NCBI RefSeq assembly: GCF_025766255.1
Contig: NW_026516719.1
Span: 62,001-126,000 of the forward strand
Length of the DNA stretch: 64,000 bases
Origin: Zychaea mexicana
Taxonomy: Eukaryota > Mucoromycota > Mucoromycetes > Mucorales > Lichtheimiaceae
Direction of reading: 5' to 3'
Every line of letters starts with the position of its first letter. Position 1 is the stretch's first letter. Position numbers and translations under genes: made by a program. Below are positions 9,869-45,249 of the stretch, piece by piece. Below the pieces are notes generated by a model that made no database searches, was not told the DNA's origin, and worked only from the letters and a program-made list of their open reading frames with translations.

Positions 9869-12800
9869 ATGTCAATTGCTCAGTGGCGACAATTCAACTT
9901 TTTCGATAAACAACAAGTCGTCGATCCTACCGACAAGTCCAAATCGCCTGCCGTATTTCAGGTGTGTATATATATACAAAGACGAACATGAAGAGCAGGG
10001 GTGAAAGCAAATTGTCAGTAACATCTATATATGTTCTATGTATTATAGAAGTCTGATATATCAGTACTCACTAGCGGTCGCGGACAAATTGCACTAGCTG
10101 ATATCCTTTTTATTGTTGCTATTAATTGAAAGTTGGATGCAAGATTAACATATCTATCACTCGCTCGAAATATGCTTCCTTAACCGTTTTATGTTTACAT
10201 TCGAAAGGCCAGGTCTATATCAGCGATCGCAACTTTAAAACTCATTCGTTCGTCGCGTATGATGGCGGTCGCGTTACTCACCTTAAGCAACTCAAGCAAA
10301 AGAATATCTTGGTGACAGTTGGTGTGAGTAGAACTATTATACGGATGTCTACGTGTGAAAGGATGCCTCATACCTTATTGTGTATGCATATTTCAGGAAG
10401 AAGATAACGGCACACCAGTGGTTAAATTTTGGGACCTTGATTCAGTGGATCGATCCAAATTAAACGAGTCCCAGCCTTACACACCTACCTGCATTCGAAC
10501 AATCAAGATCCAGCATGGAACCAAGCCTTATCCTGTAAGTAAGAGAGATAATCCCATGAACCTTTGATAAAACAAAACTAACGAAAGAAACCGGGAATCT
10601 ATTGTTACAGGTATCTACCATTGCTGTGCTGGATAACATGTCTCAACTTGCTGTTGGTTTGACTAGTGGCGTTGTAATTCATGTTCGGGGAGACTTGTCA
10701 AAGGATCGTACTGTTAAGCAAAAGGTCATTTTTGAAGGCGAAGAGCCAATCACAGGTAATTTAAGCAAGACATTCTACAACGAGATAAAAGAATCTCCTA
10801 ATAAGCATGAATATTTTTGTTTTTGCAATATTTAGGTCTGGGATTCCGCGAACAAACAAAATCCACCATCTTGTTTATTGTCACCACCGGCAGCATCATG
10901 TCATATAATACTACTGCAAATAAGCCCACAGTGGTAAGTTTGGGAGGAGGAGGGGAGCAGGAGGTTGAATTTGGATAACACCAATTTTTTATCACCGAAT
11001 GAAATTTGATGTATTATACATGTACTATAGACTACGTTGGACGAACAAGGCTGTGATTTGGGATGCGCTGTCATGAGCGATGTACAAGAGATGGTAGTGG
11101 GTCGCGATGAAGCCATCTACTTTTACGATTCGACAGGAAGAGGACCATGTTTTGCATACGATACACCCAAATCATCATTGACCTGGTTCAAGGCAAATTA
11201 CTTGGTTATTGTGTCGCCACCAGTCACCACGACCACCCACTTATCAAGCCCAGCACGATCCGCCCTATCTTTCAGTCCAAAACGAAGTGCCATGAATGAA
11301 CTGACGAAAGTCACGATTTTTGATACGGCCAACAAGTTCATTGCCTACGTTGGCACGTTTGTTGGTGGTATCCGTGGTGTTTTCTGCGAATGGAATTCGG
11401 TCTGGATTGTGGGCATGGATGGCAAGGTAAATATATCAAAGAGCGGTCGTTGCTCGAATTTCTGATTCACCTCCTTTCACTTATCTATCACTTCTAGGTC
11501 CATCATCTCGATGAAAAAGATACCCCTACAAAGCTAGAGATTCTCTTCAAGCTCAATCTTTACGTTTTGGCAATCAATTTGGCACACATGCAAAAGTATG
11601 ATGATGCAAGCATCGCCGAAATTTTTAAAAAATATGGTGATCACTTGTATTCGTAAGTCTACATCCGGAAAAGTTGTACTTTACTTCTTTGGTTATGCAT
11701 CAAGGCAAAGATTAATTTCATCCTTTCAAAAAAAAAATAGAAAGGGTGATTATGACGGTGCAATTGAGCAATATGTACGAACAATCGGTCAGCTTGAACC
11801 ATCCTACGTTATTCGGAAGGTAATCAGTGTTCTATAAGAATAGGGGCTAAAAGTAAATATGTAAGTGCTAACCTCCACGGAATAGTTCTTAGACGCACAA
11901 CGAATATACAATCTAACAAACTATCTGCAAGAGCTGCATTCACAAGGATTAGCCAACGCTGACCATACCACATTGCTGCTAAATTGCTATACCAAACTCA
12001 AAGACGTATCACGATTGGATCAATTCATTAAGGTCAGTTCGAGAAAAAATTTGGCCTTGGGATTTTATACTGACATGAAAAATAATATTAGAATGACTCG
12101 GACTTAAACTTTGATCTCGAAACGGCAATCAGCGTATGTAGACAAGCGGGTTACTACGAGCATGCTGTCTATCTAGCAGAAAAGTTCCTAGAACATGATT
12201 TGTAAGTGGCGTTCGAAAAGAAAATTATAGACAATAATGGACTTACCAACAGCAACATATTGTCAACGACAGATATCTCGATATTGTTATTGAAGATATC
12301 CGAGATTACGATGCTGCCCTGACATATATACGAAAACTGACGCCCCATGAGGTGCGATTAGGAACAATTTTCTTTTCGAGCTACAAGTGGTAAAAGAAAC
12401 ACTTACTAAATAAATGACTGTATAAATAGGCCGACAAAAGTTTGCAAAAATACAGCAAAACGCTCCTTACATATCTTCCAGAGCAAACGACACAGCTACT
12501 AATCGATCTCTGCACAGGAGCTCTGACCATTACAAATATCAACGGTGGCAGTGCTGAAAGAGAAGATGCACTTTCACCTACACCTTCAGCCAAAAACAAC
12601 ACCACACTTCAAACATTATCGATCCTTCCGTTCGCTGGACCATCCAATGATGCAGCATCAATCCAGTCGGGCAGTAGTGGACATAATGGCGGCACAGGAA
12701 CGCCCAACGGCATGGGCGATAGCAGCAGAAAGCAGCGAAAAGGTCTCAGCTACACACCACCGTCTGCACGGATATTCATGCCTGCATTTGTCGAACGGCC

Positions 12801-14348
12801 TGATTGTCTCGTCATGTTGTTGGAGCGTGTTTACGAAAAGCGATGGGGCTACTCTGCGGAAAAGCTAACTGCGGCGGTGGCAACCAGTGATGCAGCATCG
12901 ACTCGCAGCTATAGCACCAACGACAAGCACCAGACGAATGGTGCTTCTGGTACCCCCACTACAACATCCGCTGCTGCTGCTGCTACGCAAAGTACATTAT
13001 CTCTACAAGAGAAAGAGGAACGCAGAACAATTTGGAACACGCTGCTCGAGCTGTATCTTATGGACGAGCATCCTGTTCCACTCATGTTCCCTCAGTTGAA
13101 CACTCAAAGACCTAATCAGCTCAGTGATCGTGATCAGCAAAAACGTCGAAAGGAGTTCCGCGTCAAGGCATTGGCGCTCTTAAAGGATGATTCAGTTGAA
13201 TATGATACAAATCAGGCTTTGGTGCTATGCCAGCTCAAGCAATTTGATGAAGGCATTGTATATCTGTACGAAAAGACGGGCATGTACACTGATATCTTGC
13301 GATTCTGGATGGATAAAGAAGAGACAGACCGTGTCATTGAGAGTGTACGAAAGTACGGGTAAGTACTTTCTTCTTCTCCCTTTTTATTGCTTATATTGTG
13401 TACCTTCGCACAAAAAACGAAAGGCAAGCTAATAAACAATCTCCAAGTGCTACGAGAAAAAAGCTGATCAAGTCATTGTTTGATTCTATTTTCAACGTCT
13501 AGACCAAAGGATTCGTCATTATACCCCATGGTGCTCACCTATTTTTCATCCAATCCGGAAATATTATCCAAATCCACGCCTGAACTTTTATCTGTTATCA
13601 ACCATATCGACTCTCAAGATCTTTTGCCACCTATTCAGGTAGTTCAAGCTTTGTCTCAAAGCAATGTGGCTACTATCGGTTTGATCAAGCGATACATTGG
13701 CAAAAAGATCGAGCACGAGCGAGAAGAGTTGAAGCAGGTGGGTACAGCAAAGTGAGGTGGATATTCGTGGGGGAACTGATATGACTAATATTCTTACTGA
13801 CCGTGAATAAATGATTCAGAACGAAGAGCTAATAACAAGTTATCGCGAAGAGACTGAAAAAAGAAGAAATGAAATTGAGGAACTACAGACAAGTGCGCGT
13901 ATATTCCAAGTTCAAAAATGTAGTGGATGTGATGGCATGCTTGATTTACCCGCTATCCATTTCCTTTGCCGTCACTCGTATCATCAGCGGTAAGTAGCTC
14001 TTGTCACACGTAGAACTGAGTACGTCAAACACGTTGCAGCCTAATCTCTGACGCTATCTTCCTAGCTGTATTGGTGAAAACGATCGAGAGTGCCCACAGT
14101 GTGCTATCCAGCACCGTATGATCAGCGAAATTCGTCGAACACAAGAAGCCAACGCAGATCGTCATGATTTGTTCTTTGATCAGGTACGCATATAATAATT
14201 GGAGGGAGGTTATTCAGTTAGAAGACCCGATTGCTAAACACCAGTCTTTATACGTACATCGCAGCTCGATAGCGAAGAAGATGGGTTCTCGGTCATTGCA
14301 GATTACTTTTCAAGGAACACGATGGCATTTGCCAAACTAGTTGATTGA
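9869..14348 (+). CDS. VPS11: VPS11, HOPS/CORVET tethering complex subunit
   Basis: Seventeen exons give 1050 aa: 9869-9961, 10049-10100, 10199-10323, 10397-10534, 10611-10755, 10836-10933, 11031-11426, 11498-11652, 11741-11819, 11886-12032, 12092-12201, 12273-12351, 12430-13358, 13503-13737, 13820-13989, 14066-14183, 14265-14348. Motifs characteristic of VPS11 appear in order: an N-terminal beta-propeller (RVTHLKQLKQKNIL, GPCFAYDTPK), the alpha-solenoid (YGDHLYSKGDYDGAIEQY, LANADHTTLLLNCYTKLKD, LPEQTTQLL), and a C-terminal RING-H2 near residues 960-1000 (CSGC, CRHSYHQRC, CPQC), then FSVIADYF. VPS11 scaffolds the HOPS and CORVET complexes that tether late endosomes and vacuoles. Exon 13 carries a Ser/Gly/Ala-rich insertion (about residues 570-700) that makes it longer than the roughly 940-residue animal protein. 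Intron 2 is AT-AC. Confidence 0.95.
10101..10198 (+). other. U12-type AT-AC intron in VPS11
   Basis: The 98-nt intron begins ATATCCTTTT at 10101, has TTCCTTAAC at 10176-10184, and ends TTTAC at 10198. These match the minor-spliceosome 5' splice site and branch-point consensus, and the branch adenosine lies 15 nt from the intron end. Joining 10100 to 10199 gives ALADSKGQVYISDRN, which aligns with the GD-x-x-GQI segment of other VPS11 proteins. No GT-AG alternative restores this frame. Confidence 0.92.
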
Positions 14349-43047: not shown

Positions 43048-43646
43048 GTTTGACATTCTCTTTTATGAAAGATGATTATTATAAATGAGGCGTACCCAGC
43101 AATACTATTGATATTCGATATGACCTTCTTTTCTTCGATGTATGTAGGTGACGATGACGTAATCAGCCGGCGATTACGCCCTCAAGGTAATATGTTGTGG
43201 TTTGGGTGACATCTTCAACCATACGGTCGAGGGAGAGTGCATTATAGTTCTTAGTACTATTGACTGCTATTACTCTTAGTCACTGATGGTACTTTCTGAT
43301 TTTATATACATAGTTGATCATAGAAAACGGGCGCCGTCGATCTCCTCAAGGCAGCATACAATGGTTTGGGTTGGTTTCACGGAAAGTATGCTTCATATTA
43401 CATTTCTTTTACAAACATACATATTTGATCATAAAAAAAAAGACTGCCGCCGAATTCTTTATGGGAAGGTACTAATGCCGGCAACAGAAAACGTCATGAC
43501 GTGCTTTATACTTTTTCTAGATTCTACAGTGCTGTGCCTTTGGAGCGGACTTTGTTTTACATGGCTAGTATAGCAAGCAGAACAATATGTGTGCGCACAG
43601 ACGTCGATTTTGCGGCATAAAGTATAATTTGATCGCCTGTGGTTTT

Positions 43647-44200
43647 GTATAAAGCGGTTCTGTAACTGGAAAAAAGGTGCTCTTACAGACACTCAACGTG
43701 GGTGGCAGTACGCAATTCGCGCATTGCGTACAACAATCTTTGCAGCTGATCGAGTCGCGGTGTCAGCGAAAGTGTATGTTATTTTATCTTTGTTGCACAT
43801 ATAAAGTATTTTTTACAACGAACAATGTCAAAGGCAATGTCAAAGTTAACTTTATTGCAATCGGAATTGTACACTGTAGGGCAACACAAATCTCAAACAA
43901 TTGCGGTTGGTGAATGGTGGAATGAACGGACAGGTACGACCTGAACGGTAGCAAGCTCTTTATGCCCTCTCTTTGTGTATAAAGCGGGTCCGTCACTCGA
44001 AAAAAGGTGCTCTTGTTGCCGTGTGAGTATTATTCTTTCTTTGCTGCACATATATAAAGTAGTTTTTATAACGAACAATGTCAAAGTTAACATTACTGAA
44101 TCTAGCATTGCAAACGACAACAAAAGTCTCAAGTCATTGCGGTTGGTGAATGGCAGAAGGAAGAGAAGGGTACAGCCTGAAAGCGTGGGAAGCAAGCTTT
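43647..44200 (+). repeat. diverged tandem duplication of about 330 bp inside the array
   Basis: TATAAAGCGG...GGAAAAAAGGTGCTCTT at about 43648 recurs as TATAAAGCGGGTCCGTCACTC at 43978. CATATAAAGTA, AACGAACAATGTCAAAG and CATTGCGGTTGGTGAATGG-like blocks follow in the same order in both copies. Confidence 0.65.
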
Positions 44201-44344
44201 TGACAGAAGCCCGCCACCATGATCTTTATTACTACTAATTCATATAACTTTCTTTTTTTGTATATACATAGTTGATCAGTTCTTGGCTGTTTTGACGGTT
44301 GTACAGCCACTTTCCAAACACACAACATGCTGCGTTGTAGACTT

Positions 44345-44399
44345 TGGGCTCTATGGTAACTTCTCATACGGATCTCTGTTTAAATTACCATAGAGCTCT
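44345..44399. repeat. inverted repeat (hairpin)
   Basis: GGGCTCTATGGTAA at about 44345 pairs with TTACCATAGAGCTC at about 44386, a stem of about 13 bp with a loop of about 27 bases. It lies between array modules. Confidence 0.5.
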
Positions 44400-44832
44400 A
44401 TGCTAAGCGCACATACGGATTTTTTACAAGACACAATGGCTTTCGCGACTAGGGTTACACAAGAGGGTTCTCATTTGTTTTGATGTTGTATTGCACGACA
44501 ATTCTTATTGCTATTAATTGCTACGATTCTCTTTTCTTTAATATCCATAGTTGACGATCACGAAACAGCCGAGACACATCCTTCAAGGTGATATGTAGTG
44601 GTTTGGATAACATTCTTAAAGGCATACGTGAGGGGAGAAATATAATTGTTATTGCCATTGATTGCTACGATTCTCTTTTCTTTAATACCATAGTTGGCGA
44701 TCACGAAACAGCCGAGACCAGTCCTTCAAGGTGATATATATTGGTTTGGATAACATTCTTAAAGGCATACGTGAGGGGGAGGGGGTAGCAACAATAATAT
44801 TATTGGTACTTGATATGACCTTTTATTTATAG

Positions 44833-45249
44833 TTGACAATGAAGATACGGCCGCTGCCAATTTCATCAGCGCAATTTATGACGGTTTGACAATCTCTTTT
44901 ATGAAACGTGGGGATCGTGATGGATTTTTATAAGTGATGCGTACCCAGCAATACTATTGATATTCGATATGACCTTCTTCTCTATATAGTTCACGATCAA
45001 GCAAGGACCGCTCACAGTTTCATCAGCGCAATTTATAACGGTATGACACTTTTTTATATGAAAGATGATTATTATAAATGATGCGTACCCAGCAATACTA
45101 TTGATATTCGATATGACCTTCTTCTCTATATAGTTCACGATCAAGCAAGGACCGCTCACACTTTCATCAGCGCAATTTCCAAGATTTATGAGTCCGTTGA
45201 AGCATCACAAACTGCTGATGACTGCATTCGCAAAGTACTGGTGCTGTAA
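44833..45249 (+). CDS. 3' exons of a gene with tandemly duplicated exons
   Basis: Three exons, 44833-44883 (51 nt), 44990-45040 (51 nt) and 45134-45249, read in phase 1 with no stop until TAA at 45247-45249. The two full modules each encode 17 residues: VDNEDTAAANFISAIYD, then VHDQARTAHSFISAIYN. The last begins VHDQARTAHTFISAISK and continues to IRKVLVL and a stop. Both introns (106 and 93 nt) are GT-AG and nearly the same sequence. The 5' exons cannot be connected with certainty. Function is unknown; the repeat is short, polar and probably helical. Phase-preserving 51-nt exons mean that copies can be added or skipped without breaking the frame. Confidence 0.55.

Follow-up and report, generated by a model that had tools for sequence, protein, structure and literature searches.

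A predicted U12-type AT-AC intron in a fungal VPS11 gene and the probable age of its position

Background

The window analysed here, a stretch of 64,000 nucleotides (C258:62001-126000 of an assembly of 50.3 Mb in 305 contigs), carries a VPS11 gene whose second intron begins with AT and ends with AC. Minor introns and the corresponding snRNAs have already been published for Mucoromycota (PMC2846911, PMC10639083, PMC4133162); the present analysis adds that the VPS11 intron probably dates back to the opisthokonts, and it hints at a prevalence of AT-AC among the minor introns of this genome. No earlier report naming a minor intron in VPS11 was found among the papers listed by the literature search, which did not extend to supplementary tables.

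Results

The VPS11 gene and the elements of its second intron

The hand-built model of the gene (Table 1) is an open reading frame whose sole stop is the terminal one; 15 of its introns are GT-AG and intron 2 is AT-AC. Its identity as VPS11, proposed in the original prediction, is borne out by Pfam, where PEP5_VPS11_N scores 431 bits and is accompanied by clathrin-type repeats, a zinc finger and VPS11_C, and by the PDB match to 7zu0_A PEP5 (1.7e-75). The protein is 78% identical to that of Lichtheimia corymbifera over the full length and 92% to that of Zychaea mexicana (over 80%); identity is 89% with Phascolomyces, 87% with Fennellomyces and 86% with Circinella, in these three over 77%. Such relatives place the fungus in the Mucorales, close to Lichtheimiaceae. 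Elsewhere in the window, clustered direct repeats of 64-112 nt occupy positions 43074-45178.

Intron 2 opens with ATATCCTTTTT, and its branch site is separated from the intron end by 14 nt (CGTTTTATGTTTAC). The 5' splice site, the branch site and the coupled AT-AC termini all match the U12 type and AT-AC subtype originally assigned to it; only the spacing of 15 nt between branch site and intron end had to be corrected on recount. The intron interrupts an aspartate codon after its first base (G/AT, phase 1). The spliced junction reads ...GRGQIALA-D-SKGQVYISD... and restores the conserved frame, while a retained intron leads to a stop after ...LADILFIVAIN (GRGQIALADILFIVAIN, then stop). The expectation that splicing restores a conserved VPS11 segment is thus upheld by recovery of the SKGQVYI junction and also by the best fit to ten relatives, given below.

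Table 1. Features of the VPS11 locus, in window coordinates
Feature	Positions	Strand	Remarks
VPS11 gene (HOPS/CORVET subunit)	9869..14348	+	hand-built model, 17 exons, 1050 aa
Intron 1	9962..10048	+	ordinary GT-AG, phase 0
Exon 2	10049..10100	+	KSDISVLTSGRGQIALA plus base 1 of the D codon
Intron 2	10101..10198	+	predicted U12-type AT-AC, 98 nt, phase 1
Minor-type 5' splice site	10101..10110	+	ATATCCTTTT, matches RTATCCTTT
Minor-type branch site	10176..10184	+	TTCCTTAAC, matches TTCCTTRAY and lies near the 3' splice site
3' terminal AC of intron 2	10197..10198	+	read from the sequence
Exon 3	10199..10323	+	remainder of the D codon, then SKGQVYISDRNF...

Minor-spliceosome components in the assembly

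Infernal places a U11 snRNA at C232:324205-324340 (72.7 bits, E 6.5e-12) and a U6atac snRNA at C262:166089-166232 (55.4 bits, E 1.9e-11), both above the Rfam cut-off; the latter ends in poly-T and is divergent in its 3' half. The Rfam search of the assembly at E <= 0.001 returned nothing for U12. The relaxed search (E <= 10) gave a candidate at C295:483548-483686 (33.9 bits, E 0.00101 genome-wide, the Rfam gathering score being 53) and a second, weak match elsewhere (17.8 bits, E 6.95). The score of the candidate is weak taken alone, because 7 of 14 control genomes also give matches at that threshold, none of them above the cut-off. Its alignment includes AUGAGUAAGGA, a stem II loop with GGGUAACGCC and an Sm-like AAUUUUUU, while stem III is shrunken. 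As it combines the branch-pairing core with stem II and an Sm-like site, the C295 locus is probably a U12 of reduced form.

Other routes to U12 were set aside. The pattern ATGAGTAAGGAAAATNAC with at most 2 mismatches occurred at 21 places, near the control level (11+10 versus 10+7), and cmscan on 20 of the 21 detected nothing; GTAAGGAA...ATTTTTG occurred at 16 places (control 4+4), and 13 of these 16 loci were run through cmscan. One locus, L056, had a plausible look but gave no U12 match in cmscan, and its fold is ordinary (z -1.27).

U4atac was not found in the assembly at E <= 0.001. A candidate at L067:1501-1650 (C14:125962-126111) scores 22.9 bits with E 1.91, a threshold at which 11 of 14 control genomes also match, and its pairing with U6atac is equalled or bettered by 112 of 600 random stretches; its Sm-like 3' end and CCUUUU...GGGGUUG presumably resemble human U4atac. 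Human AT-AC minor introns depend on CENATAC (PF14968), for which there was no match, one candidate having been scored without a positive control.

The components are predicted to pair with the intron. In the minimum-energy register ATATCCTTTT forms 8 predicted pairs each with the 5' end of the assembly's U11 and with its U6atac, and the candidate U12 is predicted to pair with TTCCTTAAC through the stretch around GUAAGGA. The predicted energies for VPS11 intron 2 are -6.7 kcal/mol for U11 at the 5' site, -7.9 for U6atac at the 5' site and -6.8 for U12 at the branch site; for the intron of a CDK gene, described below, they are -6.7, -7.9 and -7.4 kcal/mol respectively.

AT-AC introns in other genes

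A genome-wide search with the pattern RTATCCTTTN{61,91}TCCTTRAYN{7,17}AC gave 17 rows, corresponding to 13 places, and the reversed-pattern control gave 0; all 13 places start with ATATCC and none with GTATCC. AT-AC introns of the VPS11 design are present in seven further conserved genes, whose spliced flanks match importin-9 (L069, E 4.2e-7), FANCD2 (L070, E 4.9e-17), PPME1 (L076, E 1.4e-13), IPMK (L079, E 1.6e-11), Pfam Glyco_transf_22 (L074, 88.3 bits; we take this protein to be of the PIGB type), Pfam Alg6_Alg8 (L081, 105.9 bits) and a CDK5-like kinase (L025, E 7.6e-15). The homology spans the junction in six of the seven; for IPMK the Pfam match starts just past the junction and the PDB match about 2 residues before it. 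The organism had been said to keep a working U12 spliceosome, a claim exposed to the absence of every component; this did not occur, and U11, U6atac and a probable U12, together with the AT-AC introns of these seven genes, support it.

The 3' ends of the identified introns are model choices, in which a nearby AC that restores homology was picked. The pattern-matched AC differs from the chosen one in L070, L076 and a further candidate, L068, because the branch match sits too far from the latter, beyond the range of the pattern (34, 22 and 27 nt respectively). L068 (C17), L072 and L073 (both C112) are additional candidates for AT-AC introns, flanked by open coding sequence; these flanks have no Pfam match, those of L068 no PDB match either, and all three were left out of the identified genes. 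The CDK intron came from a separate AT-AC pattern search with 26 rows, in which it was the only hit retained as an intron of a gene, L004 and L026 having been inspected and dropped; L071, L084 and L026/L083 are unlike gene introns and seem spurious.

Repeated sequences were noted along the way. On C168 (230844-241413, L009-L021), 13 copies of one AT-AC pattern match form a tandem array in which twelve copies are spaced at about 640 bp, and one copy, L014, has no ORF of at least 150 aa. On C12, L030:502-2367 is an open reading frame of 621 aa with HVHIWIQ and GPSNVGKT, which we take to be HUH-like and Walker A motifs. It has no Pfam match; the same or nearly the same 18-mer with similar flanks recurs on C140, C174, C179, C292 (twice) and C83, the L030 copy alone having been read, and the locus resembles a rolling-circle Rep gene, viral or transposon-borne, that is present in several copies.

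The same position in relatives

Where a gene predictor does not allow AT-AC ends, the intron leaves read-through marks in VPS11 protein models. The 5' mark, DIL, is the phase-1 reading into the intron (G/AT ATC CTT); the 3' mark, HS-x-G, arises when the last intron base is read into exon 3 (H being C/AT, then S-x-G). Among the 120 models listed in a first search, DIL occurs in five (Acaulospora, Racocetra, Gigaspora and two Actinomortierella) and HS-x-G in four (Dichotomocladium, Parasitella, Umbelopsis vinacea and Rhizophagus clarus), a false match in P0198 having been removed. The marked fungal models presumably belong to Glomeromycotina, Mortierellomycotina, Mucorales and Umbelopsis. A holozoan search (120 listed) added DIL in 5 of 113 new models, all of them from bony fishes and representing four species (Silurus, Scleropages, Astyanax and, twice, Stegastes). 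None of the 120 listed plant models has DIL; the plant models inspected have G-x-(D/N)-G or a like sequence at this point, which carries no information on the intron. Overall, 10 of 353 listed models carry DIL.

When the marks are combined, nine models from other Mucoromycota and five from bony fishes point to the same position and phase, so that the comparison of position suggested by the original prediction comes out, at the level of protein models, in favour of a shared site. Because these marks agree between Mucoromycota and bony fishes, the intron is probably as old as the opisthokonts and was present in the ancestor of animals and fungi. That the two groups gained minor introns separately at one site is unlikely. 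The marks are protein-level only and plant models show none, which leaves separate gain some room; against it stand the shared codon, phase and ATATCCTT start, and the treatment of U12 intron gain as negligible in PMC2831892.

The models also show how often this junction is damaged. Of P0001-P0092, which are Mucoromycota apart from the Basidiobolus model P0079 and the model P0002, 40 of 92 have the junction intact by alignment, while a second test put the number at 42 of 92, a difference due to P0074 and P0076, which are N-terminally short yet intact and were scored as not intact by the alignment test. Models damaged or cut short at this junction or ahead of it number 52 and 50 of 92 respectively; in 16 of 92 (second test, whose pattern missed some, e.g. 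P0033 and P0082) exon 1 is present and the junction damaged. The remaining 28 of the listing run through the junction without a break, as the script found for 13 of them and inspection by eye for 15. The damage is probably due to gene finders refusing AT-AC ends, although many of the roughly 50 non-intact models are simply N-terminally short and other causes are possible. P0002 is probably a transcript with the junction spliced, since its contig of 3311 nt leaves no space for 16 introns.

Chance and competing splice pairs

The full U12 composite of VPS11 intron 2 is unexpected by chance. The combination of ATATCCTTT, TTCCTTRAY and an AC 6-13 nt further on occurs once in the two strands of the window and not at all in both strands of 60 simulated windows (order-1 Markov); the separate elements are not rare, RTATCCTTT being observed 4 times versus 1.26 expected and TTCCTTRAY 6 times versus 2.73.

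Around intron 2, 47 in-frame, stop-free GT-AG, GC-AG and AT-AC pairs were compared by their fit to ten VPS11 reference proteins. The AT-AC pair of Table 1 fits best (306.3) and the second-best fit is a GT-AG pair at 10115..10212 on the + strand (289.5), which we rejected as it turns the conserved SKGQ into ILFI. It is very improbable that the major spliceosome removes this GT-AG intron, or uses another cryptic pair, and that the likeness to an AT-AC intron is accidental: a similar reading does appear in some public models of relatives, e.g. P0033 (ADILFIDRTF), but the ILFI product departs from the 53 models (of 120) whose junction is intact, the donor GTTGCT and acceptor GGCCAG seem weak beside the consensus, and a full composite would not be expected by accident.

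That intron 2 belongs to the U2-type AT-AC introns, which the major spliceosome removes, is scarcely credible, since its 5' site is ATATCCTTTT and not of the ATAAG type, its 3' end is preceded at 14 nt by a perfect U12 branch site, and U11 and U6atac genes exist in the assembly. Introns of that class are known in human, where 85 were counted (PMC8280824).

Discussion

A joint reading of the locus

The elements of the intron, the reading frame, the snRNA genes and the sister introns are read directly in the DNA, and taken together they make it very probable that intron 2 of VPS11 is a U12-type AT-AC intron removed by the minor spliceosome; its position is probably inherited. In the order of assembly that general knowledge suggests, U11 would pair with ATATCCTTTT and U12 with TTCCTTAAC, and U6atac would then displace U11 at the 5' site; the genome encodes U11, U6atac and the probable reduced U12. 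Actual splicing, as we infer it, would join the exons at G/AT and restore the first beta-propeller of VPS11. The marks in the same codon and phase in other Mucoromycota and in bony fishes would then reflect common descent of the position.

If so, VPS11 offers one traceable minor intron with apparently the same position, phase and AT start in vertebrates and Mucoromycota, whose history can be read across the opisthokonts. The damaged VPS11 models are a practical warning for gene annotation.

The balance of AT-AC and GT-AG introns

The matched GT-AG pattern, GTATCCTTTN{61,91}TCCTTRAYN{7,17}AG, gave 0 places in the assembly versus the 13 AT-AC places, without a GT-AG positive control. This comparison covers one length class, a strict consensus and one genome, so that minor introns of the GT-AG kind would escape it if their spacing were shorter or their 5' site weaker. 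The identified AT-AC introns of this length number seven, that of VPS11 and those of six other genes, the one in the CDK gene being shorter; under two counts from Phycomyces the odds of finding no GT-AG intron range from about 1 in 600 (0.4^7) to 1 in 85 (0.53^7). The minor introns of this genome may be mainly of the AT-AC subtype, and the original remark that this is the rarer one may fail here, within the one length class compared (13 versus 0 with matched patterns).

Elsewhere, 24% of human minor introns are AT-AC and 69% GT-AG (PMC8280824), the GT-AG to AT-AC ratio in the U12DB genomes runs from 3:1 to 1:1, and conversion from U12 to U2 is mostly in the GT-AG subtype (PMC2831892). The skew, if real, would fit such conversion and leave AT-AC introns as the survivors, an idea testable in a fungus whose minor introns are few. 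A bolder version, which we hold only tentatively and would sooner doubt than accept, is that the minor spliceosome of this genome has been retained for AT-AC introns and hardly any others, its GT-AG minor introns having been lost or turned ordinary, perhaps without a recognisable CENATAC.

Comparison with known systems

Among early-diverging fungi, minor introns are also retained in Rhizophagus irregularis (205) and Basidiobolus meristosporus (249) (Larue and Roy 2023, PMC10639083); in Rhizophagus phase 1 outnumbers phase 2 and phase 2 phase 0, and a subset of positions is common to animals and plants. As regards the snRNAs, an Apophysomyces assembly is described in PMC5604411 as being without U12 and U4atac. 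The U12 stem III is shrunken and the 3' half of U6atac divergent in Lichtheimia corymbifera (PMC4133162), as in the candidate U12 and the U6atac here; according to the same paper U12 stem II and the last U11 stem are extended in that fungus and U4atac was undetected, and in our assembly none appears at E <= 0.001. Lichtheimia is another species, with a VPS11 78% identical to ours. A close parallel in intron class and subtype is provided by Phycomyces blakesleeanus and Rhizopus oryzae, both Mucoromycotina, for which the RTATCCTT rule was described (Bartschat and Samuelsson 2010, PMC2846911); those genomes, however, have both subtypes, with 8-9 AT-AC versus 8-12 GT-AG introns in Phycomyces, whereas the matched GT-AG pattern gave 0 here.
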